Of a stretch of 64,000 nucleotides of DNA, positions 33,763 to 47,209 are shown one piece after another. Each line of letters opens with the position of its first letter. Position 1 is the first letter of the stretch. Location: positions 62,001 through 126,000 of the forward strand of contig NZ_CABVQC010000010.1 in assembly GCF_902499175.1 (NCBI RefSeq), given 5' to 3'. This DNA comes from Burkholderia aenigmatica. Lineage in GTDB: Bacteria > Pseudomonadota > Gammaproteobacteria > Burkholderiales > Burkholderiaceae. Below the pieces are notes generated by a model. The model was not told where the DNA came from, searched no databases, and saw nothing but the letters and a program-made list of their open reading frames with translations. A program made the position numbers and the translations under genes.

Positions 33763-34527
33763 TTATTTCGGCGCGGTGCACGCGTCGATGCCGCCGGCGA
33801 TCGCGGTGGACAGCTTCTGGATCGTCTCGCGACGCGCAAGCCGCGCTTCCTCGTCCGGATTGACGATCACGCCGGCCTCGACGAGCACGGCCGGAATCGG
33901 CGCGGTGCGCAGCACGACGAGATCGTCGAAGCGGTGGATGCCGAGTTGCGGGTCGATCAACGGGCGATTCTCGCCGCGGATCGGCTGCGCGTGATACAGC
34001 GACGGCCGTTCGCCGGCCGCCACCAGCCGCTCGGCGATCGCCTTTGCGCAACGCAGGCTTTCCGCATAGTGCGGATTGCGTTCCGACACGAACACCGAGA
34101 AGCCGCGGAATTCGCGCTGCCGGCCCGCGTCGATGAACTGCTGCTGCATCGAGTCGTGATGGATCGACACGAACAGGTTCGCGTCGGGTGCCTGCGTCGA
34201 ACGCTGGTCGAGTGCGATCTCGCGGCCGTCGGCCGACGTGCGCAGCACGCGGTCGCCATGCGCGGCGAGTTTTTCGGCGACCGCCGCGGACAGATCGAGG
34301 TTGTACAGGTATTCGACGCGGCCGCTCGCGCCGGTGGAGCCCGGGTGCGCCGGCGTATGGCCGGTGTCGACGACGATGTAGCGCCCGGCGGCGGGCGTGG
34401 TGCCGGCGGGGGCTGCGGTGTCGGCCGCATGCAGTGCCAGCGGCGCGCCGAGCAGCGGGGCGCAGGCGAGCATGCGCGCGGCGGCGCGCGCGAACGGGCG
34501 AAGGCGTCGGATGGTTCGGTTCGTCAT
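33763..34527 (-). CDS. N-acetylmuramoyl-L-alanine amidase (Amidase_3)
   Basis: A 254-residue exported zinc amidase that cuts the bond between MurNAc and the L-alanine of peptidoglycan stems. The N-terminus is a signal peptide (RAAARMLACAPLLGAPLALHA); the catalytic domain has VVDTGHTPAHPGS (His ligand), ASGRVEYLYNLDLS (Glu ligand), FVSIHHDS (His ligand) and AVLVEAGVIVN near the end (catalytic Glu). It is of the AmiC-like catalytic-domain-only type, with no AMIN domain. The ATG at 34527 places the signal peptide normally; the frame runs on to 34587. It precedes the LprI-like gene on the same strand. Confidence 0.88.
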   Translation of the reverse strand: MTNRTIRRLRPFARAAARMLACAPLLGAPLALHAADTAAPAGTTPAAGRYIVVDTGHTPAHPGSTGASGRVEYLYNLDLSAAVAEKLAAHGDRVLRTSADGREIALDQRSTQAPDANLFVSIHHDSMQQQFIDAGRQREFRGFSVFVSERNPHYAESLRCAKAIAERLVAAGERPSLYHAQPIRGENRPLIDPQLGIHRFDDLVVLRTAPIPAVLVEAGVIVNPDEEARLARRETIQKLSTAIAGGIDACTAPK

Positions 34528-34651
34528 TGTTGTTGTCGAGGCGGGCATACGGCGCGTCGGACGGCGCGGCACCATCGGCCTGCTCAATGCAGTCGGAATG
34601 TCGCGCGATTATAGCGGGTGGCGGTGCCGCCGCAATGACGGATGACGGCCG

Positions 34652-36271
34652 TCAGGCCAGCACGCGTCGGGCGGCGAGCATGCCCCAGTACGACGCTTCC
34701 TCGAACAGCGACAGCCCGGACAGGTCCGCATGCGCAAACACGACGGGGCCATCGGCATCGCGCAGCGCGAGCAGCCCCGGCCGGCTCAGGAAGCCGACGT
34801 CGGGCGTCGCCATCGCGTGGCCGCGCACGGTGATCTCGAGCGCCGTCGCGTGTTTCCACAGGTCGCGCCCGTAGACGGCCTGCAGGTCGATCGCCGCCTG
34901 TTCGCGCAACGCATCGGGCTTCGCCTGCGCGAGCCAGCGGCGCGTGTCGTCCGGCGCTTGCGTGCTCAACGCCTGGTACGCGGAGAACACCGAGCGCGTC
35001 GGCGGCGACATGCGGATCAACTGGTGCGTCGACACGACATAGCCGAGCCCCGCGCCGTCGTAGACGACGTTGTCCCACGCGAGCGGCACGCCCGCTGCTT
35101 CGGCCGGCATGCCGTCGAGCAGGAAGTTGGACACGAGCCACGGCGCGCGTGGCGGCAGGTCGCGCGCGGGGTCGAAGCCATACGCGCCGAGCTGCGGAAA
35201 CACGCGCGCCGCGACGAACAGCGGCATCGCGCAGACGACGCGTCGCGCCTTCAGCGTGAACGTCGACAGCGCGCCGTCGTCGCCGATGCGCGCGCACAGC
35301 ACGTCGACGCCGCTCGCGCGCTCGGTCGCGCGCACCGCGAAGCCGTCGCGCGACCACGCGTTCGAACCGGTACGCGCGGTGATCGAATCGGTGAGCTTGG
35401 TCACCATCGTGTGCAGCCCGTCGGGCCAGGTCAGCACCGCGCCGTCGCTCGCGTCGCCCGCGTGGCCGCCGCGCGACGAGAAATAGTGCAGGCCGGCCCA
35501 CGCGGACACGTGCTCGTATCCGGCGCCGTAGTCGTCGCGGCAGCAGTAGTTCAGATACCAGTGCAGGGCCTTCGCGGTGTAGCCCTCGTCGAGCAGCCAC
35601 TGACGGAGCGAGCGCCGGTCGAGCGCGCGCCAGCGCGGGTCGTGCGACGATTCCGCGATCGGGATGCAGAACACCTTGCGGCCATCGGCGCCGCGCGCGG
35701 TGCGCAGCGTGTCCGTGTACGCGAAGAAGCGTGCCTGTTGCGCGAGCGCGTCGGCGCCGAGGCCGGCCGTCGGCACGATGCCGTCCCGCCACTGCCCGGC
35801 GATGAAGAGCCGTTCGTCGGGCGCATGGACGAGCACGCGCTCGTCGTACACCGGGCGCGCCGAGAACGGCGCCGATTCGATCACGCCGAGATCGGCGAGC
35901 ATGTCGCGCAGATGCGTGGATTCGAGCGACGGCAGCGGCAGGTAGTGCGCGCCTTTCGGATAACCGAGATCACCGAAGCGGCCGCCGGCCGCGTTGCCGC
36001 CGAATTCGGGGCCCGCGAGCACCGTGAAGTGCCGGTGCCCGGCGCGCGCGAGCTGCCATGCGCACGACAGCCCGGCGGCGCCCGCGCCGAGGATCGCGAC
36101 GTCGGTCTCGAGCGTGCCGGACGGCGGCGGCAGTGTCGCATGGTCGCGCAGCGCATGGCCTTCGCGCATGCCGGGGTAGCCGACCTGCGGCGTCGTCTCG
36201 ATCCAGCCGGTGCGCCCGCAGGCGGCGAGCGACGCGGCCGCCGACGCGACGAGGAACGTGCGGCGGTCCAT
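34652..36271 (-). CDS. FAD-dependent amine oxidase-like protein with Tat lipoprotein signal
   Basis: A 539-residue flavoprotein. The N-terminus is a Tat signal with a lipobox: MDRRTFLVASAAASLAACG (twin Arg at 3-4, Leu-Ala-Ala-Cys), so it should be folded with FAD, exported and lipid-anchored. The FAD motif VAILGAGAAGLSCAWQLARAG follows at about residue 58, and the C-terminal PVVFAHADLSGLSLFEEASY closes the flavin domain. The fold is the monoamine/polyamine oxidase type. Its ATG overlaps the stop of the spermidine-synthase-like gene by one base (TGATG at 36269-36273), which ties the oxidase to polyamine production. Confidence 0.85.
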   Translation of the reverse strand: MDRRTFLVASAAASLAACGRTGWIETTPQVGYPGMREGHALRDHATLPPPSGTLETDVAILGAGAAGLSCAWQLARAGHRHFTVLAGPEFGGNAAGGRFGDLGYPKGAHYLPLPSLESTHLRDMLADLGVIESAPFSARPVYDERVLVHAPDERLFIAGQWRDGIVPTAGLGADALAQQARFFAYTDTLRTARGADGRKVFCIPIAESSHDPRWRALDRRSLRQWLLDEGYTAKALHWYLNYCCRDDYGAGYEHVSAWAGLHYFSSRGGHAGDASDGAVLTWPDGLHTMVTKLTDSITARTGSNAWSRDGFAVRATERASGVDVLCARIGDDGALSTFTLKARRVVCAMPLFVAARVFPQLGAYGFDPARDLPPRAPWLVSNFLLDGMPAEAAGVPLAWDNVVYDGAGLGYVVSTHQLIRMSPPTRSVFSAYQALSTQAPDDTRRWLAQAKPDALREQAAIDLQAVYGRDLWKHATALEITVRGHAMATPDVGFLSRPGLLALRDADGPVVFAHADLSGLSLFEEASYWGMLAARRVLA

Positions 36272-37785
36272 CAGCGCAGCACGTGCTTCCAGTCGTCGTC
36301 GAAACGGCGCACGAGCGGCTGGTCGTTGAGTTCGTTCGGCGACATCGGCAGCGCCGGCATGTCGGCCGGGAAGTGGAACATCTCGGCGGCCGTCTGCGCG
36401 TCGAGCCAGCGCGTGGGCACCGAGTAGTGCGTCGGCACCGTGAAGTCGCGGCGCTTGCCGGCGATCACGAAACCCCAGTCGCCGAACGACGGCACGTAGC
36501 AGTGGTACGGCCACGTGTTGAGCCCGGCTTCGTGCAGCGTCGCGATGATGGTCCAGTACGCGTGCGGCGCGAAGTACGGCGAGGTCGACTGGATCACCGC
36601 GTAGCCGTTCTCCGACAGGTGGCGCGCGAGCAGCCGGAACACCGGCACGGAATACAGCCGGCCGAGCCCGAAGTTGGTCGGGTCGGGGAAGTCGACGACG
36701 ATCGCGTCGTACACGTCGGCGTTCGATTCGAGCCAGCGCACCGCATCGTCGTTGATCACGTGCACGCGCGGGTCCTTCAACGAGCCCTGGTTCAGCTTGA
36801 CGAGCGGCGCGGACGTGGAAAACAGCTTCGTCATCGCGGGATCGAGATCGACGAGCGTGATCTGTTCGAGGTTGCGGTGCTTGAGCAGCTCGCGCACCGC
36901 GAGGCCATCGCCGCCGCCGAGCACGAGCACGCGCTTCGCCCACGGCAGCGCCTCGATCGTCGGGTGGATCAGCGCCTCGTGATAGCGGTGCTCGTCGCGC
37001 GACGAGAACTGCAGGTTGCCGTTCAGGTACAGCCGCATGTCGTCGTGCCACTGCGTGAGCACGATGCGCTGGTACGGCGTCGTTTCCGAATAGATCGTCT
37101 CGTCGCCGTACACGCCGTGTTCGGCCCAGTGCGTGATGCGATCCGACAGCGCGAAGCCGGCGATGAGCAGCCCGATCACGAGCGACGCGCGCATCAGCTT
37201 GCCGCGCACGTTGCGGATCTCGTCGCGGAACAGGTGCGTCGTCCACAGCGCGACGAACGCGTTCAGGAGCCCGAACAGGAAGCTGGTGCGCAGCAGGCCG
37301 AGGCGCGGCGCGAGCACGAGCGGGAAGATCAGCGATACGGCGAGCGAGCCGAGATAGTCGAAGGTCAGCACTTCGCTGACGGTATGGCGGAACGCCTGGC
37401 GACGCTGCTGGAACGCGCGCATCACGAGCGGGATCTCCATCCCGATCAGCATGCCGAGCGCCAGCACGAGCGCATAGAGCGCCGCGCGGAACGGCGCGGC
37501 GAGCCAGGCGAACACCGCGAACAGCAGCGCGGCCGACACGCCGCCGAGCAGGCCGACCAGCAGCTCGATGTCGACGAAGCGGTCGAGCACGTCGTCGTCC
37601 TCGACGAACTTCGCGAGCCACGAACCGATCCCCATCGCGAACAGGTAGCAGCCGATCACCGACGAGAACTGCAGGATCGAATCGCCGAGCAGGTAGCTGG
37701 ACAGCGCGCTGCTGATCAGTTCGTAGCCCAGCCCGCACGACGCGAGCACGAGAATCGACAGGACGAGCGCGCGCTTATGCAGCAT
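36271..37785 (-). CDS. Membrane-anchored spermidine synthase-like aminopropyltransferase
   Basis: A 504-residue fusion. The first 210 residues are about seven membrane helices (starting MLHKRALVLSILVLASCGLG, then LGDSILQFSSVIGCYLFAMG, FRAALYALVLALGMLIGMEIP). The rest is a class I methyltransferase-like spermidine synthase domain: VLVLGGGDGLAVRELLKH, ITLVDLDPAM, DDAVRWL and YDAIVVDFPDPTNFGLGRLY. The soluble SpeE enzymes have DxxDPxGPA at this last site; here it is DFPDPTNFGL, so the amine acceptor may differ. It would use decarboxylated SAM, made by the SAM decarboxylase at 41043. First gene of the minus-strand pair, divergent from the DUF350 operon. Confidence 0.85.
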   Translation of the reverse strand: MLHKRALVLSILVLASCGLGYELISSALSSYLLGDSILQFSSVIGCYLFAMGIGSWLAKFVEDDDVLDRFVDIELLVGLLGGVSAALLFAVFAWLAAPFRAALYALVLALGMLIGMEIPLVMRAFQQRRQAFRHTVSEVLTFDYLGSLAVSLIFPLVLAPRLGLLRTSFLFGLLNAFVALWTTHLFRDEIRNVRGKLMRASLVIGLLIAGFALSDRITHWAEHGVYGDETIYSETTPYQRIVLTQWHDDMRLYLNGNLQFSSRDEHRYHEALIHPTIEALPWAKRVLVLGGGDGLAVRELLKHRNLEQITLVDLDPAMTKLFSTSAPLVKLNQGSLKDPRVHVINDDAVRWLESNADVYDAIVVDFPDPTNFGLGRLYSVPVFRLLARHLSENGYAVIQSTSPYFAPHAYWTIIATLHEAGLNTWPYHCYVPSFGDWGFVIAGKRRDFTVPTHYSVPTRWLDAQTAAEMFHFPADMPALPMSPNELNDQPLVRRFDDDWKHVLR

Positions 37786-37795
37786 GGTGCGTCCG

Positions 37796-37825
37796 TTGTG
37801 CAGCGGTCGGCAATGTGGATATACT
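37796..37825 (+). promoter_or_regulatory. Probable sigma-70 promoter of the DUF350-SPFH-SpeD operon
   Basis: TTGTGC (37796-37801), 18-base spacer, TATACT (37820-37825); transcription would start about 75 bases before the DUF350 ATG at 37907, which has GAGGGAAAGA as ribosome site. The gap to the divergent spermidine-synthase-like gene is only 121 bases, so both promoters are close together and can be regulated jointly. Confidence 0.5.
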
Positions 37826-37906
37826 GGCGCGGAATTTTGACTGCTGGCCCTGCGCGGGCCGGCCGGCGACGGGGCGGCGAACCGAGCACAAAATCCGAGG
37901 GAAAGA

Positions 37907-38293
37907 ATGAATAGTGCCTATCTCTATGCGGTTCATTTACTGTCGGCGTTCGTGCTGCTTCTTGTGTTCGCGGCAGTGTACCTGAAGGTCACCCCGTTCG
38001 ACGAACTGGCGCTGATCCGCGACGGCAACGCGGCCGCGACGCTGTCGTTCGGCGGCGCGCTGATCGGCTTCTGCCTGACGCTCGCGTCCAGCATCGCGCA
38101 CAATTCCACGCTCGGCGAAGTCGTGATCTGGGCCGTCGGTGCGATGGTCGTGCAACTGATCACCTATGCGGCGCTGACGCGCCTGATGCCCGGCATGAAT
38201 CATGCGATCGAGGATCGCAACGTCGCGATGGGCGGCCTGATGGGCACCGCGTCGCTCGTCGTCGGCATCATCAATGCCGCCTGCCTGACCTGA
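37907..38293 (+). CDS. DUF350 family membrane protein
   Basis: A 128-residue inner-membrane protein with four helices, all of it one DUF350 domain: YLYAVHLLSAFVLLLVFAAV, then FDELALIRDGNAAATLSFGG, SSIAHNS, and GTASLVVGIINAACLT. DUF350 (YjfL in E. coli) is often found with polyamine or glutathionylspermidine-type genes and SPFH/PspA-type membrane proteins; no biochemical function is established. It leads the plus-strand operon and lies divergent from the spermidine-synthase-like gene. Confidence 0.85.
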   Translation: MNSAYLYAVHLLSAFVLLLVFAAVYLKVTPFDELALIRDGNAAATLSFGGALIGFCLTLASSIAHNSTLGEVVIWAVGAMVVQLITYAALTRLMPGMNHAIEDRNVAMGGLMGTASLVVGIINAACLT

Positions 38294-38320
38294 CACGCCA
38301 CGCGTTTCGAGGAGACCGAC

Positions 38321-39373
38321 ATGAGTCTGGGATCGTTTATCCGCAAGCAGTTCGTCGACGTCCTGCAATGGACGGAAGACACCGATGGCGTGCTGGCCTG
38401 GCGCTATCCGATGGAAGACATGGAAATCCGGTACGGCGGCAAGCTGACCGTGCGCGAAACGCAGGTCGCGATCTTCGTGAACGAAGGCAAGGTCGCCGAC
38501 ATCTTCCAGGCGGGGTTGTACACGCTGGAGACGAACACGCTGCCGGTGCTCACGTACCTGAAGAACTGGGACAAGCTCTTTCAGTCGCCTTTCAAGTCGG
38601 ACGTCTACTTCTTCAGCACGCGGCTGCAGCTCGGCCGGCGCTGGGGCACCGCGCAGCCGCTGACGATCCGCGACCGCGAATTCGGCTTCGTGCAGGTGCG
38701 CGCGTTCGGCATCTACTCGTACCGGATCGTCGACGCGGGCGCGTTCTATCGCGAGGTCAGCGGTACGCGCGCGCAGTACACGGTCGACGATCTCGAACAG
38801 CAGCTGCGTAATCTGGTCGTCACTGCGATGAGTACAACGTTCGGCTCGGCCGACGTGCCGTTCGTCGACATGGCCGCGAACCAGTCGCTGCTGTCGCAGC
38901 GCGTCGCCGACGCGCTGGTGCCGGTGTTTACGCGCTATGGCCTCGCGCTCGACGCGTTCGCGGTCGAGAGCGTGTCGCTGCCGGCCGAATTGCAGAAGGC
39001 GCTCGATCTGCGGATCGGCGCGGGGATGGCCGGCGATCTCGCCCGCGCCACGCAATACCAGACCGCGCAGGCGATTCCGCTCGCCGCGCAGAATCCGGGC
39101 GGCATCGCGGGTGTGGGTGCGGGGCTTGCCGCGGGCGCGGTGATCGGGCAGGCGATGGCTGGCCAGATGGCGGGTGCCGCGCAACCGGCGCCGGCTGCAC
39201 CGCCTGCGCCCGCCGCGGCACCGGCCGCCGCCGCGCAGCCTGCCGCGCCGGCGGAAGGCACCGATTACGTGCAGCGCCTCGAACAGTTGAAGGCGCTGTT
39301 CGACAAGGGCCTCGTGACCGAAGACGAATATTCGCGCGCGAAGGCCGAGATCCTCGCGAAGCTCACCCGGTAA
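38321..39373 (+). CDS. SPFH-domain protein with SHOCT tail
   Basis: A 350-residue protein. Residues 1-200 are an SPFH (band 7) domain of the Svf2/virion-core-like subtype: FVDVLQWTEDTDGVLAWRYP, YGGKLTVRETQVAIFVNEG, VQVRAFGIYSYRI. A helix-rich and Ala/Pro-rich linker with Gly-Ala repeats (about residues 245-310) follows, and the last 35 residues are a SHOCT motif (LEQLKALFDKGLVTEDEYSR, AEILAKL), a short oligomerisation helix pair. SPFH proteins form membrane microdomain rings. No signal peptide; membrane attachment probably peripheral. Lies between DUF350 and the DUF4178 gene. Confidence 0.85.
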   Translation: MSLGSFIRKQFVDVLQWTEDTDGVLAWRYPMEDMEIRYGGKLTVRETQVAIFVNEGKVADIFQAGLYTLETNTLPVLTYLKNWDKLFQSPFKSDVYFFSTRLQLGRRWGTAQPLTIRDREFGFVQVRAFGIYSYRIVDAGAFYREVSGTRAQYTVDDLEQQLRNLVVTAMSTTFGSADVPFVDMAANQSLLSQRVADALVPVFTRYGLALDAFAVESVSLPAELQKALDLRIGAGMAGDLARATQYQTAQAIPLAAQNPGGIAGVGAGLAAGAVIGQAMAGQMAGAAQPAPAAPPAPAAAPAAAAQPAAPAEGTDYVQRLEQLKALFDKGLVTEDEYSRAKAEILAKLTR

Positions 39374-39382
39374 GCGTCGCGC

Positions 39383-40900
39383 ATGTTCAGTACCTCGTGC
39401 CCCCAGTGCGGCGCGCCGGTCGAGTTTCGCTCGGCGGCGGCGGTGATGGCCGTCTGCGCGTTCTGCCGCAGCACGCTGCTCAAGCGCGGCACCGACGTCG
39501 AACGTATTGGCGAACTGGCCGCGGTACTCGACGATGCGTCGCCGATCCAGATCGGCACGGCCGGGCGCTACGGCAAGCGCACGTTCACGGTGCTCGGGCG
39601 CATCCAGATGACCTACGACGCCGGCGCATGGAGCGAGTGGTATGTCGTGTTCGACGACGGCGCGTTCGGCTGGCTGTCGGATGCGTCGGGTCAGTATGCA
39701 GTCACGGTGCGCGAGCCCGACGATGCGTCCGGCGGCGCGTGGCCGGCGTTCGGCACGCTGGAACCGGGCATGCGGATCGACCACGGCGGCCGCGCGTTTC
39801 TCGTGTCCGACGTGCGCACCGCGCGCTGCACGGGCGGCGACGGCGAGCTGCCGTTCCGCGTCGATGCCGGCTGGGAGGCGCGCGTCGTCGACCTGCGCAC
39901 CGGCAACGCATTCGCGACCTACGACTATTCCGACGCCGATTCGAACGGCGGGAGCCCGGCAGTCTATACGGGCGAAGCACTCGAATTCGATGCGCTCGCG
40001 TTCACCGGGCTGCGCGATACCGAACACGATACGCGCGAGAAGCGCGGGGCGGAGATGGTGCCGTTCGCGTGCCCGAGCTGCGGCGCGCCGCTGTCGTATG
40101 CGCCGAACGTCGCCGACTACGTGGTGTGCGGCAGTTGCCACGCGGGCGTGCAGTGCACGGCCGAGCAGCAGACGGTGTTCTCGGCGCAGCGCAAGCTCGA
40201 AGCGGTGAAGGGTGCGCTGGAGCTCGGCGCGATCGGCACGTTCGACGGCGTGAAGTACACGGTGATCGGGATGATGCGTTGCCGCGTGCCGGACGACGAC
40301 GAGACGTGGGACGAATACCTGCTGCTGAACCCGAAGCGCGGCTTCCTGTGGCTCGTGCAGAGCGAAGGGCGCTGGGAGCGCGTGCAGGTGCTCGATCAAT
40401 GGCCGACGATCGGCAGCAATGCCGACGTGACCGACGGCGACAAGACCTACCGCTTGCGCGAGGAATACGACTCGGAGGTCGTCTACGTGGTCGGTGCGTT
40501 CAACTGGCGCGTGCAGGTCGGCGATCGCACGTCGATCATCGACTACGGCTGGCAGAAGGACAAGCTGACGCGCGAGCGCAGCGACGCGGAGATCGTCTGG
40601 TCGCGCGCGCGGCCGCTGTCGGGCCGCACACTCGCCGAACGCTTCGGCACACCGGCGCTCGCGACGGCCGCGGCGGCAGCGGCAACGGGCGCCACCGAGT
40701 CGACGGGTCTGTTCGGCCGGAAAGGCCCGCACAGTTTCGCGCCGCTGCCGCTGGTGTTCAGCGCGCTGTTCGTGATCCTGAACATGAGCTCGCTGTTTTC
40801 GTTCAGCGGCCGCTCCGTCTACGTGCTGGTCGGCCTGCTGGTGCTGTGGCTGCCTGAATGGCTGTGGAAGAGTTTTGCGTCGGACGGAGGCAACGCGTGA
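39383..40900 (+). CDS. Double zinc-ribbon/DUF4178 protein with C-terminal membrane helices
   Basis: A 505-residue protein of two repeated halves. The first zinc ribbon is CPQCGAP...CAFC (about residues 6-29), followed by a DUF4178 domain with GRYGKRTFTVLGRIQMTYDA and WSEWYVVFDDGAFGWLSDASGQ. The second ribbon is CPSCGAP...CGSC (about 231-253), with a second DUF4178 domain (FDGVKYTVIGMMRCRVPDDD; WDEYLLLNPKRGFLWLVQSE). Two membrane helices near the end (LVFSALFVILNMSSLF; VYVLVGLLVLWLPEWLW) fix it to the membrane. DUF4178 occurs in polyamine-linked clusters but has no known activity. Starts 9 bases after the SPFH stop. Confidence 0.85.
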   Translation: MFSTSCPQCGAPVEFRSAAAVMAVCAFCRSTLLKRGTDVERIGELAAVLDDASPIQIGTAGRYGKRTFTVLGRIQMTYDAGAWSEWYVVFDDGAFGWLSDASGQYAVTVREPDDASGGAWPAFGTLEPGMRIDHGGRAFLVSDVRTARCTGGDGELPFRVDAGWEARVVDLRTGNAFATYDYSDADSNGGSPAVYTGEALEFDALAFTGLRDTEHDTREKRGAEMVPFACPSCGAPLSYAPNVADYVVCGSCHAGVQCTAEQQTVFSAQRKLEAVKGALELGAIGTFDGVKYTVIGMMRCRVPDDDETWDEYLLLNPKRGFLWLVQSEGRWERVQVLDQWPTIGSNADVTDGDKTYRLREEYDSEVVYVVGAFNWRVQVGDRTSIIDYGWQKDKLTRERSDAEIVWSRARPLSGRTLAERFGTPALATAAAAAATGATESTGLFGRKGPHSFAPLPLVFSALFVILNMSSLFSFSGRSVYVLVGLLVLWLPEWLWKSFASDGGNA

Positions 40901-41046
40901 TCCGGTACATCCTCTACGGCATCTATGGCCTGATCGTCGTCACGCTGTTCAGCTGCGCGTCGATCGGCGGCAGCGGGTCGGGCGGCAGCGGCTGGGGCAG
41001 TTCGTCGGCTCGCAGCGGCTACTCGTCGTACGGATCGCACAAGTGA
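40897..41046 (+). CDS. Tiny membrane protein or lipoprotein, 49 residues
   Basis: A GTG start at 40897 overlaps the DUF4178 stop (GTGA), with a good CGGAGG ribosome site seven bases before. The protein begins VIRYILYGIYGLIVVTLFSC, one hydrophobic helix ending in a Cys (FSCAS) that may be lipidated; the remaining 28 residues are a Ser/Gly-rich tail (GGSGSGGSGWGSSSARSGYS). It matches the small accessory proteins that accompany DUF4178 genes. Function unknown; a membrane-anchored flexible peptide is all that can be said. Confidence 0.65.
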   Translation: MIRYILYGIYGLIVVTLFSCASIGGSGSGGSGWGSSSARSGYSSYGSHK

Positions 41047-41426
41047 CCGCACGCGACGGGATCGCATCACCGCGCGCGACGTTCGGCTCGCACGTGCTGG
41101 CCGACCTGGCCGGCATCGATGCCGCGTTGCTGCGCGACGCCACGCGGCTCGAGGCGCTTCTCACCGAAGCGGCGCGGCAGGCGGGGGCGCGCGTGATCGG
41201 CGCGCATTTCCATCATTTCGGCGGCGAGCATGGCGTGACGGGTGTCGTGCTGCTCGCCGAGTCGCACATCACGATCCACACGTGGCCCGAGCATCGCTTC
41301 GCGGCCGTCGACGCGTTCATGTGCGGTGCGGCGCGTGCAGCCGATGCGGTCGATGCGATCGCCGCTGCGCTCGGTGCGCAGGCACAAGTCAGGCAGCAGG
41401 TTGCGCGCGGCGGTGCGCCGACGTGA
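41043..41426 (+). CDS. speD: S-adenosylmethionine decarboxylase proenzyme
   Basis: A 127-residue class 1 (bacterial short-type) proenzyme. The self-cleavage site is Glu73-Ser74 in LLAESHITIHTWPEHRF; Ser74 becomes the pyruvoyl cofactor, with His79 and Cys94 at the same offsets as in the Thermotoga enzyme (Ser63, His68, Cys83). It makes decarboxylated SAM, the aminopropyl donor for the spermidine-synthase-like protein at 36271. The GTG at 41043 overlaps the previous stop (GTGA), the second such overlap in this operon. The N-terminal 15 residues are longer than in minimal members. Confidence 0.92.
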   Translation: MTARDGIASPRATFGSHVLADLAGIDAALLRDATRLEALLTEAARQAGARVIGAHFHHFGGEHGVTGVVLLAESHITIHTWPEHRFAAVDAFMCGAARAADAVDAIAAALGAQAQVRQQVARGGAPT

Positions 41427-41452
41427 GCGGGCGATTCACTCCCTTTATCGAT

Positions 41453-41839
41453 ATGCGTAACAGAATCCGGTTTGCTGCGTGGCTCGGCTGGGGGCTGCTC
41501 GCCGGCAACGCCGCTGCCGATGTGCCGCCGAAGCCGCCCGGGCCGGTCGTGATGGTTCACTTCGATTACTACGAGAAGGACAAGGCGCGTCTTTACGCGC
41601 TGGAGCAACGGCTGGATCGCGCAGTGAGGCGGGCAGGCGCCGGCGAACTGGGCGAGACCGAACTGCATCGCGACGGCAACGACGGTTATCTGTACCTGTA
41701 TGGCGCCAGCCCTGACCGGCTGTATGCGGTGGCGCGACCGATCCTGAAATCGTCAGGATGGCTGACCGGTGCGGAGGTCACGTTGCGCCGCGATACGGGG
41801 GCGGAAACGTTCCCGTTGCGCGGGGACGGCGCACGTTAG
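41453..41839 (+). CDS. Unrecognised small exported protein at the operon end
   Basis: A 128-residue protein with a signal peptide (MRNRIRFAAWLGWGLLAGNA, cleavage near AAA-DV) and a small alpha/beta domain: VMVHFDYYEKDKARLYALEQ, DGYLYLYGASPDRLYAVARP, GAEVTLRRDTGA. The family is present in Burkholderia and related genera but I cannot name it. The ATG at 41453 fits the signal peptide; an alternative GTG at 41423 overlaps the speD stop as GTGA, the same pattern as the two preceding genes, and would add ten residues. The choice between them is open. Confidence 0.6.
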   Translation: MRNRIRFAAWLGWGLLAGNAAADVPPKPPGPVVMVHFDYYEKDKARLYALEQRLDRAVRRAGAGELGETELHRDGNDGYLYLYGASPDRLYAVARPILKSSGWLTGAEVTLRRDTGAETFPLRGDGAR

Positions 41840-42007: not shown

Positions 42008-42796
42008 CTAACGGTCGAACCGGAACGACGATACGCTGTGCAACGTCGCGTCGTCGGTGCCGACGTAGCCCTGCGTCGTCGCGACGACCGCACGCTTGCC
42101 GTTGCTCAGCACGGCCCAATAGCACTCGCCGGCCGCCGAGTAGAAGCCGGTTTTCGGATCGTTGATGCGACACATGATCGTCGCTTGCATGCCGCGCCAG
42201 CCGGCACCGGAGAAACGCTCGACTTCCTGTGCGATGCCGGAGCCGTATGACGTCACCCACTTGCCGTCGTCCTGCTTCTCGAATCCCGCTTCTTTCTCCG
42301 CGACCGGCTCCAGCGCGCCGTCGACGATCTGGAACGCGATGAGGTAGCTGCTATAGGTCATGTTGCGGCCGACGATCGCGATGCAGCGGTTGCCGCCGAT
42401 TTCGGGGCAGGGCTTCTTTACCTGCCGGTTCGCGAGGTATTCGAACGAGACGCCGAGCGCTGGGTCGCGATAGGTTTTCCAGCCCGCGTGTTTCACCTGC
42501 TTCAGCGCCACGGTACGGTCGCGGTAGGCCGTGGCGATGCAGGCGGCGTCGGTGCAGGCGTCGCGCTGCGCGAGCCACGCGCGTTGCGACCGGATCACGG
42601 CCTGCTGGTCGGCGGCGATGCCGACGGCGTCGTCGTACGCGCTCGACAATGCGCTGTCGGCCGACAGGAGCGCCTCGTCGGCGCAGATCAGGCGATCGGT
42701 GCGCGTCTTCGAATGCGCGCAGTCGATGCTGTCGGCATGGGCCGACAACGAGAGGCCGATGGCGGCCAACGTGAGACCCAGGCGAATACCGAACAC
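42008..42796 (-). CDS. LprI-domain secreted protein
   Basis: A 262-residue exported protein. The start is a GTG at 42796 with GAGGAA upstream, giving a signal peptide VFGIRLGLTLAAIGLSLSAHA. Residues 22-95 are an LprI/DUF1311-type domain (DCAHSKTRTDRLICADEALL; AVIRSQRAWLAQRDACTDAA). The remaining 165 residues are a separate beta-rich domain (ALGVSFEYLANRQVKKPCPE; GSGIAQEVERFSGAGWRGMQ; GECYWAVLSNGKRAVVATTQ). Role unknown; extracytoplasmic. It converges with the polyamine operon. Confidence 0.7.
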   Translation of the reverse strand: MFGIRLGLTLAAIGLSLSAHADSIDCAHSKTRTDRLICADEALLSADSALSSAYDDAVGIAADQQAVIRSQRAWLAQRDACTDAACIATAYRDRTVALKQVKHAGWKTYRDPALGVSFEYLANRQVKKPCPEIGGNRCIAIVGRNMTYSSYLIAFQIVDGALEPVAEKEAGFEKQDDGKWVTSYGSGIAQEVERFSGAGWRGMQATIMCRINDPKTGFYSAAGECYWAVLSNGKRAVVATTQGYVGTDDATLHSVSSFRFDR

Positions 42797-42925
42797 GGGC
42801 GGTTCCTCAGCGGGTTCGAGCGGGGCGGTCACGCCGCCGTCAGGTGATGCCGCGGCGCACGCGGTTCGCGAAGCATCGAACCTGGCGCCGCGCATCACGG
42901 TGCGAAGCGGTGTGACGGGGCCCGC

Positions 42926-44660: not shown

Positions 44661-45701
44661 ATGAGTACGCAACAGAACCGGCGCTTCGACGCGCTCGTTT
44701 TCATTGGTCGTTTCCAGCCTCCGCATCGTGGTCACCTGAACGTGCTGAAGTCGGCACTGAGTCGGGCCGAGCGCGTGTGCGTGCTGATCGGGTCGACCGA
44801 CAAGCCCCGCACCGTCAAGGATCCGTTTTCGTTCGACGAGCGCCGCCAGATGCTGGCTTCGCTGTTCGACGCGTCCGAGCGCGACCGCGTCACGATCGCG
44901 CCGTTGCAGGATTCGACCTACAACGACGGCGACTGGGTGCGCTGGGTACAGGACGCTGTCGCGTCCGCGCTCGGCGACATCGCGCAGCGCAAGGTCGGGC
45001 TGATCGGCCACGAGAAGGACGCCACGTCGTATTACCTGCGGATGTTCCCGCAATGGGAGCTCGTTGACGTCGACGCGACGGAAGACATTTCCGCCACCGA
45101 GATCCGCGACCAGTATTTCGCCGAACGCACCAACAGCTTCGTGCAGTGGGCCGTGCCGGAACCCGTGTTCGGCTGGCTCGAGCGTTTCCGCACGCAGCCG
45201 GAATTCGCGCAGCTGAAGTCGGAAGCCGAATTCATCGCCGCGTATCGCAAGGCGTGGGCGGCCGCCCCGTATCCCGTCACGTTCGTGACGGTCGACGCGG
45301 TGGTCGTGCACTCGGGCCATATCCTGCTCGTGCGCCGCCGCAGCGAACCGGGCCGCGGCCTGTGGGCGTTGCCGGGCGGGTTCGTGAACCAGGACGAGCG
45401 GCTCGACGCAGCCTGTATCCGCGAGCTGCGCGAAGAAACCGGCCTGAAGCTGCCGGAGCCCGTGCTGCGCGGTTCGATCAAGGATCGCCAGGTGTTCGAT
45501 CACCCGACGCGTTCGCTGCGCGGCCGCACGATCACGCACGCGTGCCTGTTCAACTTCCCGACCGGCGAGCTGCCGCGCGTGAAGGGCAGCGACGACGCCG
45601 ACAAGGCGCGCTGGGTGCCGCTCAACGAATTCGCGCAGATGCGCAACGTGATGTTCGAGGATCACTTCGACATCGCCTATCACTTCCTGGGGAAGCTGTG
45701 A
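44661..45701 (+). CDS. nadM: Bifunctional NMN adenylyltransferase/Nudix hydrolase
   Basis: A 346-residue fusion. Residues 8-175 are a nucleotidyltransferase fold (FIGRFQPPHRGH at 15-26, the ATP-phosphate HxGH motif; ISATEIRDQYF, the second ATP motif), the NadM type that adenylates nicotinamide mononucleotide to NAD. Residues 205-345 are a Nudix domain with a complete box from Gly240 to Leu262 (matching GX5EX7REUXEEXGU), which in such fusions cleaves ADP-ribose or related NAD breakdown products. The next gene, nadV, makes the NMN substrate. A strong promoter lies upstream. Confidence 0.92.
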   Translation: MSTQQNRRFDALVFIGRFQPPHRGHLNVLKSALSRAERVCVLIGSTDKPRTVKDPFSFDERRQMLASLFDASERDRVTIAPLQDSTYNDGDWVRWVQDAVASALGDIAQRKVGLIGHEKDATSYYLRMFPQWELVDVDATEDISATEIRDQYFAERTNSFVQWAVPEPVFGWLERFRTQPEFAQLKSEAEFIAAYRKAWAAAPYPVTFVTVDAVVVHSGHILLVRRRSEPGRGLWALPGGFVNQDERLDAACIRELREETGLKLPEPVLRGSIKDRQVFDHPTRSLRGRTITHACLFNFPTGELPRVKGSDDADKARWVPLNEFAQMRNVMFEDHFDIAYHFLGKL

Positions 45702-45775
45702 TTCGCTGATTCCCCGCACGACGGTCCGCCGCGACAGACGCGGCGGCACTTCAACGGCCTAGAGGAGCTCTAGCC

Positions 45776-47209
45776 ATGCAAAACGATCTCGGCGGCTTTG
45801 CCGCGGTTCTCGCCAATCCGATTCTCAACACGGATTCGTACAAGGCTTCCCACTTCCTGCAATATCCGCCCGACGCGTCGGCGATGTTCTCGTACGTCGA
45901 ATCGCGCGGCGGCCGCTACGACCGGACGGTGTTCTTCGGCCTGCAGATGCTGCTGAAGGAATATCTGTGCAAGCCCGTCACGCACGCGATGATCGACGAA
46001 GCGCGCGATTTCTTCACGGTGCACGGCGAGCCGTTCAACGAAGCGGGGTGGCGCACCATCGTCGAACGCTACGACGGCTACCTGCCGGTGAAGATCCGCG
46101 CGGTGCCCGAGGGCTCGGTCGTGCCGGTGCACAACGTGCTGATGACGGTCGAATGCGACGACCCGCAGGTGTTCTGGCTCGCGTCGTATCTCGAGACGAT
46201 GCTGCTGCGCGTGTGGTATCCGGTGACGGTCGCGACGCGTAGCTGGCACCTGCGTCAGACGATCCGCCACTACCTCGAAAAGACCGACGACGATCTCGCG
46301 CAACTGCCGTTCAAGCTGCACGACTTCGGCGCGCGCGGCGTGTCGAGCGCGGAGTCGGCCGCGATCGGCGGTGCCGCGCACCTCGTGAACTTCATGGGTT
46401 CGGACACGGTGCTCGGCGTACTGGCCGCGAACCGCTTCTATCGTGAGCCGATGGCTGCATATTCGGTGCCCGCGGCCGAGCACAGCACGATCACGTCGTG
46501 GGGGCGTGAGCACGAAGCCGATGCGTACCGGAACATGATTCGCCGCTTTGGCCTGCCCGGTGCGATCGTATCGGTCGTATCGGACTCCTACGATCTGTTT
46601 GCCGCGCTCGATCTGTGGGGCGGCGAGCTTCGGCAGGCCGTGCTCGATTCAGGTGCGACGCTGGTCGTGCGCCCCGATTCGGGCGACCCCGTGACGATCG
46701 TGCTGCAGACCGTTCGTGCGCTCGACGCATCGTTCGGCTCGACCCTGAACGGCAAGGGGCGGCGCGTGCTGAATCGCGTGCGCGTGATCCAGGGCGACGG
46801 CGTCGACGAGCTGTCGATCGAAGCGATTCTTTCGGCGCTCGACGACGCGGGCTATGCGGCCGGCAACGTCGTGTTCGGCATGGGCGGCGGGCTGCTGCAG
46901 CAGGTGAATCGCGATACGCAGCGCTTCGCGATGAAGTGCTCGGCGATCCGGCGCGGCGGCGTGTGGCACGACGTCTGCAAGGATCCGGTCACCGATCAGG
47001 GCAAGCGCTCGAAAAAGGGGCGGCTTACGCTGCTGCGCAGTTTCCGCACCGGTGAGTATCGGACGACGACGCTGCCTGCTGCGTGGGACGACCGGATGCT
47101 GGAAAGCGAGTGGGAGGAAGCGCTGGAAACGGTGTTCGATACGGGGCGGTTGCTCGTCGATACGTCGTTTGCGGAAGTGCGGGCGAGGGCGCACGCGGGA
47201 GAGGTGTGA
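45776..47209 (+). CDS. nadV: Nicotinamide phosphoribosyltransferase
   Basis: A 477-residue enzyme of the NAMPT/NadV type, joining nicotinamide and PRPP into nicotinamide mononucleotide. Motifs: NPILNTDSYKASHFLQYP, YLPVKIRAVPEGSVVPVHNV, LHDFGARGVSSAESAAIGGA, SVVSDSYDLFAALDLWGG and VRPDSGDP, all close to eukaryotic NAMPT and phage NadV. Its product feeds the adenylyltransferase upstream, 74 bases away on the same strand, so the pair forms the two-step NMN route that avoids deamidation to nicotinate. A ribosome site AGAGGAGCTCTAGCC is visible. Confidence 0.93.
   Translation: MQNDLGGFAAVLANPILNTDSYKASHFLQYPPDASAMFSYVESRGGRYDRTVFFGLQMLLKEYLCKPVTHAMIDEARDFFTVHGEPFNEAGWRTIVERYDGYLPVKIRAVPEGSVVPVHNVLMTVECDDPQVFWLASYLETMLLRVWYPVTVATRSWHLRQTIRHYLEKTDDDLAQLPFKLHDFGARGVSSAESAAIGGAAHLVNFMGSDTVLGVLAANRFYREPMAAYSVPAAEHSTITSWGREHEADAYRNMIRRFGLPGAIVSVVSDSYDLFAALDLWGGELRQAVLDSGATLVVRPDSGDPVTIVLQTVRALDASFGSTLNGKGRRVLNRVRVIQGDGVDELSIEAILSALDDAGYAAGNVVFGMGGGLLQQVNRDTQRFAMKCSAIRRGGVWHDVCKDPVTDQGKRSKKGRLTLLRSFRTGEYRTTTLPAAWDDRMLESEWEEALETVFDTGRLLVDTSFAEVRARAHAGEV

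Follow-up and report, generated by a model that had tools for sequence, protein, structure and literature searches.

Operons linked to the phage shock protein system that combine a fusion of seven transmembrane helices to a spermidine synthase-like domain (7TM-SpdSyn) with DUF350, DUF4178 and a lipoprotein were described by Ravi et al. 2024, as was a variant with band-7/SHOCT, S-adenosylmethionine (AdoMet) decarboxylase and polyamine oxidase genes (PMC11237479). That paper, which cites Li et al. 2019, proposes membrane monitoring of polyamines or aminopropylation; aminopropylation of something besides putrescine has also been suggested in print (PMC11237479). Here we examine a locus at positions 34652–41839 of a 64,000-nucleotide stretch of Burkholderia aenigmatica DNA (contig NZ_CABVQC010000010.1, positions 62,001 to 126,000; the window), in which a membrane-fused SpdSyn-like protein, referred to as the synthase, lies with genes for an amine oxidase, DUF350, SPFH/SHOCT and DUF4178 proteins and SpeD. 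The block has the gene content of the band-7/SHOCT, AdoMet decarboxylase and polyamine oxidase variant as far as that source presents it (PMC11237479), the oxidase falling in the polyamine-oxidase family by its PF01593 score (Table 1). It is a member of the published operon type, and the gene association is already in print. The likeness extends to the kinds of genes, the number of transmembrane helices and the linkage to band-7/SHOCT, SpeD and amine oxidase. The published operons differ in having a PspA/CesT dyad, absent from the window block, and two C-terminal helices are described for their band-7 protein. The membrane side of the synthase, the export and coupling of the oxidase and a comparison of the acceptor site were not found among the openly licensed papers that the searches listed or in the accessible parts of PMC11237479. 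No report of a periplasmic or exported spermidine synthase appeared among the papers so listed.

Fusions of major facilitator superfamily (MFS) membrane domains to SpdSyn were reportedly found by Li et al. in 2019 with class 1b AdoMet decarboxylase and DUF350, and an acceptor other than putrescine is said to have been proposed. The decarboxylase was reportedly functional, spermidine was absent from the bacteria studied and the fusions failed to complement an speE deletion; the membrane side is said not to have been argued from topology. The window module shares with those systems SpeD, a membrane-fused SpdSyn-like protein and DUF350, and has the oxidase, SPFH and DUF4178 proteins as additional parts.

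To the description of this widespread operon type the present analysis adds a specific, testable claim: the aminopropyltransferase domain would be turned towards the periplasm, an unexpected location for such chemistry, at the outer face of the inner membrane. If the domain does face outward, decarboxylated AdoMet (dcAdoMet) or an equivalent donor would cross the inner membrane, the acceptor would have to be sought in the periplasm, the outer leaflet or the cell wall, and there would be an explanation for the finding, reported by Li et al. in 2019, that the fusions do not substitute for spermidine synthase of the cytosol.

Among named families, PRK03612 (NF002956), a polyamine aminopropyltransferase with a membrane domain, matches the synthase over its whole length (706.3 bits against a cut-off of 472). 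This family name is an annotation, and the aminopropyltransferase activity of the window synthase is predicted from its kept catalytic residues. With the fused MFS/spermidine synthase family NF037959 it shares a homologous six-helix part and the domain order, and it keeps the catalytic residues that split members of that family lack. The SpdSyn fold and catalytic Asp residues are common to soluble SpeE (TIGR00417), to the SpeD2/SpeE2 system of Pseudomonas aeruginosa and to the synthase; soluble SpeE is without a membrane domain, and the Tyr, Thr and Gly-Pro of its acceptor site are changed in the window protein.

Orientation and active site of the synthase

The SpdSyn-like domain is predicted to be extracytoplasmic, on the periplasmic face of the inner membrane, and we consider this placement quite likely. 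Family-averaged hydropathy gave seven hydrophobic segments ahead of the domain, in agreement with the seven helices named in a preliminary description of the locus made from the sequence alone. Helix 7 was present in 108 of 108 sequences of the synthase family and helix 2 was the weakest (102/108 at 1.2), while the catalytic domains of the same sequences held no candidate extra helix (at least 1.6). The density of Lys and Arg was 0.201 in loops 2–3, 4–5 and 6–7 versus 0.076 in the other loops together with the 16 residues after helix 7, and the former set had the higher Lys/Arg count in every one of the 108 sequences. Read by the positive-inside rule, this bias places the SpdSyn-like domain outside. 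Helix 7 and loop 6–7 suffice for that placement, so a weak helix 2 leaves it unchanged. Loop boundaries, the helix threshold and signal-peptide calls are simple rules of this analysis rather than the output of SignalP or a trained topology predictor.

Relatives in which the fusion is divided point to the same orientation. NF037959 matched residues 24–418 of the window synthase at 31.8 bits, below its cut-off of 40, and profile alignment of helices 1–6 of the two families gave a probability of 92.8% (E 4e-7). A Pfam MFS_1 match was found in none of 15 members of the window synthase family and in one of 11 members of NF037959 (E 1.7e-6). In 11 genomes two neighbouring genes take the place of the NF037959 fusion, one for a membrane protein and one for a SpdSyn-like protein. 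All 11 SpdSyn-like halves open, by eye, with a signal-peptide-like stretch, hydrophobic and positively charged, that ends about 8–9 residues ahead of the conserved domain start; this stretch stands at the place occupied by helix 7 in the fused protein. Two Cys residues occur at matching positions in 11/11 of these halves (+16 and +29, the latter +30 in L185). By threshold, six helices were counted in eight of the 11 split membrane halves, with 4, 5 and 7 in L187, L189 (masked bases) and L194. Among the short fused NF037959 proteins, helix 7 is at the usual place in 6/7, L179 having its seventh peak inside the SpdSyn-like domain. The long fused proteins covered were L191 and L197, with L198–L201 and L188/L202 left out; both have 13 peaks, the last one of L197 being isolated. 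At loci L185–L196 and L203, a membrane-protein gene lies beside a gene for a SpdSyn-like protein that is exported, by eye, and is without the catalytic motif.

The SpdSyn-like domain is poor in Cys, with 47 in 24,010 residues (0.196%) versus 97 in 5,552 (1.747%) in 26 soluble SpeE proteins; the membrane domain of the same family has 0.97%. The depletion fits the outside placement, yet it was rejected as proof of location, as taken up below.

In solved spermidine synthases, the lining of the putrescine site includes a Tyr and the second Asp; binding of the donor and catalysis fall to other residues. Sequences compared here as soluble SpeE were the 26 over the TIGR00417 cut-off; L172–L174, below it, were left out, and L156 aligned poorly. 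Gln259, Asp264, Tyr268, His269, Asp293, Asp315, Asp347, Asp365 and Asp368 were kept in 108/108 family sequences. Equally constant were Phe434, where soluble SpeE has the acceptor-site Tyr (24/26), and Pro367, where it has Thr (25/26). The Gly of 'GP' (24/26 in soluble SpeE) is mostly Asn or Ser in the family, and Trp437, found in 10 of the 26 soluble proteins, is invariant. With the donor-site and catalytic residues unchanged but Tyr, Thr and Gly replaced, the synthase seems to have preserved its donor side and altered its acceptor side. An acceptor other than putrescine is likely, and use of dcAdoMet by the domain is nearly as likely. Invariance at these motifs is partly built in because the named loci were found with patterns including conserved motifs. 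Some named sequences were picked by a pattern containing Phe434; the 27 phylum-sample sequences were not, and agree.

The preliminary description drew attention to DFPDPTNFGL in the synthase. The motif is present and differs from soluble SpeE, in which the second Asp is found in 24/26 and the Pro of 'GP' in 21/26, but both Asp residues are retained, so that taken alone it is no evidence of a new reaction. Against the TIGR00417 speE equivalog the synthase scored 123.9 bits, below the cut-off of 249.55, and it departs from SpeE in the acceptor-site Tyr and the DxTDPxGP motif as well. Two aminopropyltransferases of solved structure, 1uir and 7xif, also have Phe at the acceptor site; they are enzymes that accept longer amines. 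A special likeness to plant thermospermine synthase was considered and discarded, the aligned residue of 6bq2 being Tyr (PSYADIWG), not Phe.

The oxidase was encoded on the synthase strand in all 67 loci that bear it, and within −60 to +200 bp of the synthase stop in 64 of these. Twin arginines followed by a hydrophobic stretch were found by rule at the start of 63/67 oxidase relatives, and by eye slightly upstream in the other four; predicted export by the twin-arginine translocation (Tat) route is therefore a conserved trait. A lipobox-like Cys is present in 28/67. The window protein has both the twin-arginine signal and a lipobox, as expected of the Tat-exported lipoprotein it was said to be. 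An exported oxidase would belong with the SpdSyn-like domain on the same side, and whether it acts on the product of the synthase is, in our estimate, an even chance. No sequence relative of the oxidase was found in the PDB at E ≤ 0.001.

Conservation of the gene set

The genes for the oxidase, synthase, DUF350, SPFH/SHOCT, DUF4178 and SpeD proteins are a real conserved module, clustering far beyond chance. Profiles were run over 107 loci around synthase relatives, 27 from a phylum sample and 80 named, the latter being the best 80 of 583 found by patterns including conserved motifs. Loci flanked on each side by 5 kb or more are called well-flanked, and in these the partners were counted within 6 kb. 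Among the 107 loci, relatives of the oxidase were found in 67, of DUF350 in 84, SPFH in 64, DUF4178 in 73 and SpeD in 66. The corresponding counts for the 51 well-flanked named loci were 40, 43, 41, 44 and 40, with all five partners in 35. Well-flanked phylum-sample loci of the close type (14) gave 7, 13, 3, 8 and 7, with all five in two, and those of the sister type (8) gave 0, 6, 0, 0 and 2, with no partner in two.

The commonest order (24 loci) has SpeD-DUF4178-SPFH-DUF350 divergent from synthase-oxidase. Next, with 13 loci and chiefly in records from Acidobacteria and Gemmatimonadetes, comes the order SPFH-SpeD-DUF4178-DUF350-synthase-oxidase with all genes pointing the same way. The six-gene set recurs in Proteobacteria, Acidobacteria and Gemmatimonadetes, and one Fibrobacteres record (L132) has the synthase, oxidase, SPFH and DUF4178. 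In the Acidobacteria/Gemmatimonadetes clusters (L113–L148, e.g. L113:8752-8967), the frames for DUF350 that separate DUF4178 from the synthase have a length of about 70–100 aa, which is short, as if only half of the usual domain were used.

Co-occurrence was also assessed in 249 genomes of Pseudomonadota, with a threshold of E ≤ 1e-40 for synthase and oxidase and at most six oxidase candidates scored per genome; the hypergeometric P values ignore the kinship of the genomes. The synthase was found in 28 genomes, 19 with the close type and nine with the sister type. All 18 genomes with DUF4178 were among these 28 (expected 2.0; P 1.2e-20), as were all eight with the oxidase (P 9.5e-9). DUF350 occurred in 68 of the 249 and in 27 of the 28 (expected 7.7), SpeD in 57 and in 23 (expected 6.4). 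SpeD was present in 18 of the 19 close-type genomes, the exception (G169) being 71% complete, and in five of the nine sister-type genomes, the other four each being at least 99% complete. The survey gave no sign of the rare co-occurrence that would speak against grouping these genes, as the preliminary description had done.

Two tiny envelope proteins that had been counted as part of the block do not belong to it. Relatives of the 49-aa protein were found in 4/107 loci, all Burkholderia, and of the 128-aa protein in 1/107, which leaves both outside the conserved module. The amidase-like, LprI-like and other flanking genes were rejected as module parts on the same grounds (relatives in at most 4/107 loci).

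SpeD scored well above the TIGR03330 cut-off (123.3 versus 75.65 bits). Its self-cleavage residues by motif position are Ser74, His79 and Cys94, the corresponding residues of Thermotoga maritima SpeD being Ser63, His68 and Cys83 (PMC10407285). By a criterion from that source, Pro82 in TWPE is probably the Pro marking AdoMet decarboxylase rather than arginine decarboxylase (PMC10407285). No signal peptide was seen in the SpeD sequence.

A second, ordinary SpeD/SpeE pair was considered for this genome and rejected. The other Spermine_synth protein above 100 bits (L066:7579-8517, G000:C5) reads DLTPP for DxxDP and scored 193.9 bits against the TIGR00417 cut-off of 249.55; the second SpeD (in the region L067:6340-10759, G000:C1) sits between open reading frames (ORFs) that by eye are P450-like, MFS-like and HemN-like radical SAM. 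Because the C5 protein is without the second Asp and below the cut-off, and the C1 SpeD is in a likely biosynthetic cluster, the window SpeD and synthase are, judged by their sequences, the best-matched pair in the genome. The C1 region is possibly a small-molecule cluster using decarboxylated AdoMet. The C5 gene adjoins a transketolase ORF, and three weak Spermine_synth matches (45, 36.9 and 26.5 bits; frames of 279–296 aa) lie within about 16 kb at G000:C6:168888-184963.

Proposed mechanism and competing explanations

In the proposed mechanism, SpeD would make decarboxylated AdoMet in the cytosol, as its family membership suggests. The seven-helix protein is predicted to hold its SpdSyn-like domain on the periplasmic side, where the aminopropyl group would go to an acceptor that is not putrescine; an envelope protein, a longer amine or the head group of a lipid would be examples. 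The six-helix membrane part, which in relatives resembles half an MFS transporter, might, more speculatively, move donor or product across. The twin-arginine-exported flavin oxidase may act on the same side, as its coupling to the synthase suggests, and DUF350, SPFH/SHOCT and DUF4178 could form a membrane scaffold, judging from family names and published proposals. We give a probability of roughly 0.4 to this reading, that is, to extracytoplasmic aminopropyl transfer from dcAdoMet with the donor supplied by the half-MFS-like membrane part and the product finished by the Tat-exported oxidase. If it is correct, the periplasm would be a site of chemistry derived from AdoMet, and the envelope would be modified in a way that forms a class of its own. 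The chain from cytosolic SpeD through periplasmic-face transfer to a non-putrescine acceptor and on to the same-side oxidase, with the transporter step excluded, is also tentative, a little short of even odds. The preliminary description had proposed a membrane-based system that makes an unusual polyamine or aminopropylated product and processes it at the envelope, perhaps as a protective or stress-response coat. The conserved module, the changed acceptor site and the Tat signal uphold part of that idea, and the predicted outward-facing SpdSyn domain makes envelope chemistry more likely; the product, the coat and the stress role are conjectural, and the tiny proteins have dropped out.

Several observations weigh against extracytoplasmic transfer. 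To our knowledge, dcAdoMet outside the cytoplasm is without precedent, and its passage would depend on a transporter for which the half-MFS-like membrane part is a speculative candidate. When helices are counted by a plain threshold, 78 of 107 proteins have seven, 27 have six and two have five. The controls for Cys depletion were mixed, with 0.029% Cys in the presumably cytosolic SPFH protein and 1.059% in the exported oxidase. The split relatives read LGGG(T/S/I) for GGGD and DAF for DxPDP and, having lost the GGGD and DxxDP motifs, inform on topology only. In six of the 51 well-flanked named loci (L093 from Neisseria elongata, L094, L097, L105, L108 and L124) all five partners are lacking within 6 kb of the synthase, and SpeD is absent from five of the 28 synthase genomes (one close-type, four sister-type). 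Moreover, deletion of BCAL3390 and BCAM2086, both called spermidine synthases, in B. cenocepacia K56-2 caused a slight loss of polymyxin resistance and left growth unchanged (PMC3700957). By elimination only, BCAM2086 may be the ortholog of the window synthase.

If helix 7 did not cross the membrane, or if the positive-inside rule were broken here, the SpdSyn-like domain would be cytosolic; a membrane-bound acceptor would then be modified inside and the product exported to the oxidase. Such an arrangement sidesteps the problem of donor transport, and it agrees with a SpeD that has no visible signal peptide and with dcAdoMet chemistry being cytosolic in every case known to us. Nevertheless, helix 7 and the positive-side bias in 108/108 sequences, as well as the signal-peptide-bearing split relatives (11/11), make it unlikely. 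Slightly less likely still is that the product of the synthase is an ordinary polyamine, be it spermidine, thermospermine or norspermidine, exported to form a surface coat in the way suggested for P. aeruginosa SpeD2/SpeE2. The intact catalytic residues of the synthase would allow this, and it shares Phe in place of the acceptor-site Tyr with the longer-amine enzymes 1uir and 7xif; however, its score lies below the speE equivalog cut-off, and in the work of Li et al. 2019 the fusions reportedly did not complement speE and spermidine was absent. SpeE2 of the P. aeruginosa pair was shown to be a thermospermine synthase (PMC11107197). B. cenocepacia releases some spermidine, although putrescine is dominant and spermidine minor in that species (PMC3700957).

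The SpdSyn-like domain might instead be no enzyme and serve as a periplasmic sensor of polyamines or nucleosides, reporting to a complex of SPFH, DUF4178 and DUF350. Split and MFS_SpdSyn relatives do persist despite a lost catalytic motif, and four of the nine genomes with a sister-type synthase are without any SpeD. With every catalytic-site residue checked being invariant in the synthase family and SpeD accompanying the close-type synthase in 18/19 genomes, a pure sensor is quite improbable.

Layout of the locus and neighbouring genes

The host genome is 8.9 Mb, and the locus consists of two divergent transcription units (Table 1). On the minus strand the synthase comes first and is followed by the oxidase, with the stop/start overlap TGATG that had been noted before; the plus-strand unit runs in the order DUF350, SPFH/SHOCT, double-DUF4178 protein, 49-aa protein, SpeD and 128-aa protein. 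All genes named in the preliminary description lie where it placed them, as seen from coordinates and Pfam/NCBIfam scans. The Pfam cut-offs were exceeded by PF01593, PF01564, PF03994, PF13421/PF01145/PF09851, PF13785 and PF02675. The DUF4178 protein has two DUF4178 domains over the cut-off, whereas the double zinc ribbon also ascribed to it is a sub-cut-off match (DZR 15.5 versus 27.3 bits). The SPFH/SHOCT protein has a Gly/Ala-rich stretch between band-7 and SHOCT. The closest named relatives at this locus are Burkholderia, the synthase being 97–99% identical in B. cenocepacia, B. anthina and two further Burkholderia, and 98.8% in B. arboris.

Table 1. Features of the locus, with positions in the window.
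Feature	Position	Strand	Observations
Flavin amine oxidase-like protein, 539 aa	34652..36271	-	Twin-arginine signal and lipobox (DRRTFLV...LAAC); PF01593 38.2 bits (cut-off 19.8), NAD_binding_8 44.3 bits
Synthase: seven-helix membrane domain (residues ~6-216) and spermidine-synthase-like domain (~225-504), 504 aa	36271..37785	-	PF01564 113.6 bits; PRK03612 706.3 bits; 7 hydrophobic segments
Intergenic region between the divergent units, 121 bp	37786..37906	.	Divergent layout in 27/84 DUF350-bearing loci
DUF350 membrane protein, 128 aa	37907..38293	+	PF03994 115.7 bits
SPFH/band-7 protein with C-terminal SHOCT domain, 350 aa	38321..39373	+	PF13421 248.2, PF01145 53.5, PF09851 33.0 bits
Double-DUF4178 protein with CxxC pairs and C-terminal hydrophobic segment, 505 aa	39383..40900	+	PF13785 104.8 bits, two stretches
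49-aa membrane or lipoprotein-like protein, GTG start	40897..41046	+	GTGA overlap with preceding stop
SpeD, class 1b S-adenosylmethionine decarboxylase, 127 aa, GTG start	41043..41426	+	GTGA overlap; PF02675 119 bits; TIGR03330 123.3 bits
128-aa protein with N-terminal signal-like sequence	41453..41839	+	No family match in Pfam or NCBIfam scans

An N-acetylmuramoyl-L-alanine amidase-like gene (33763-34587, minus strand) begins 65 bases past the end of the oxidase gene and in its orientation, with relatives at the matching place in 4/107 loci, Burkholderia only. Beyond the SpeD unit, the protein at 42008-42811 (minus strand) weakly matches, at 22.8 bits against a cut-off of 150, the A1S_1983 family, whose members are putative colistin resistance proteins. 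Further along, at 44661-47209 (plus strand), ORFs that by eye resemble a nucleotidyltransferase-Nudix fusion and a nicotinamide phosphoribosyltransferase would form an NAD salvage pair.

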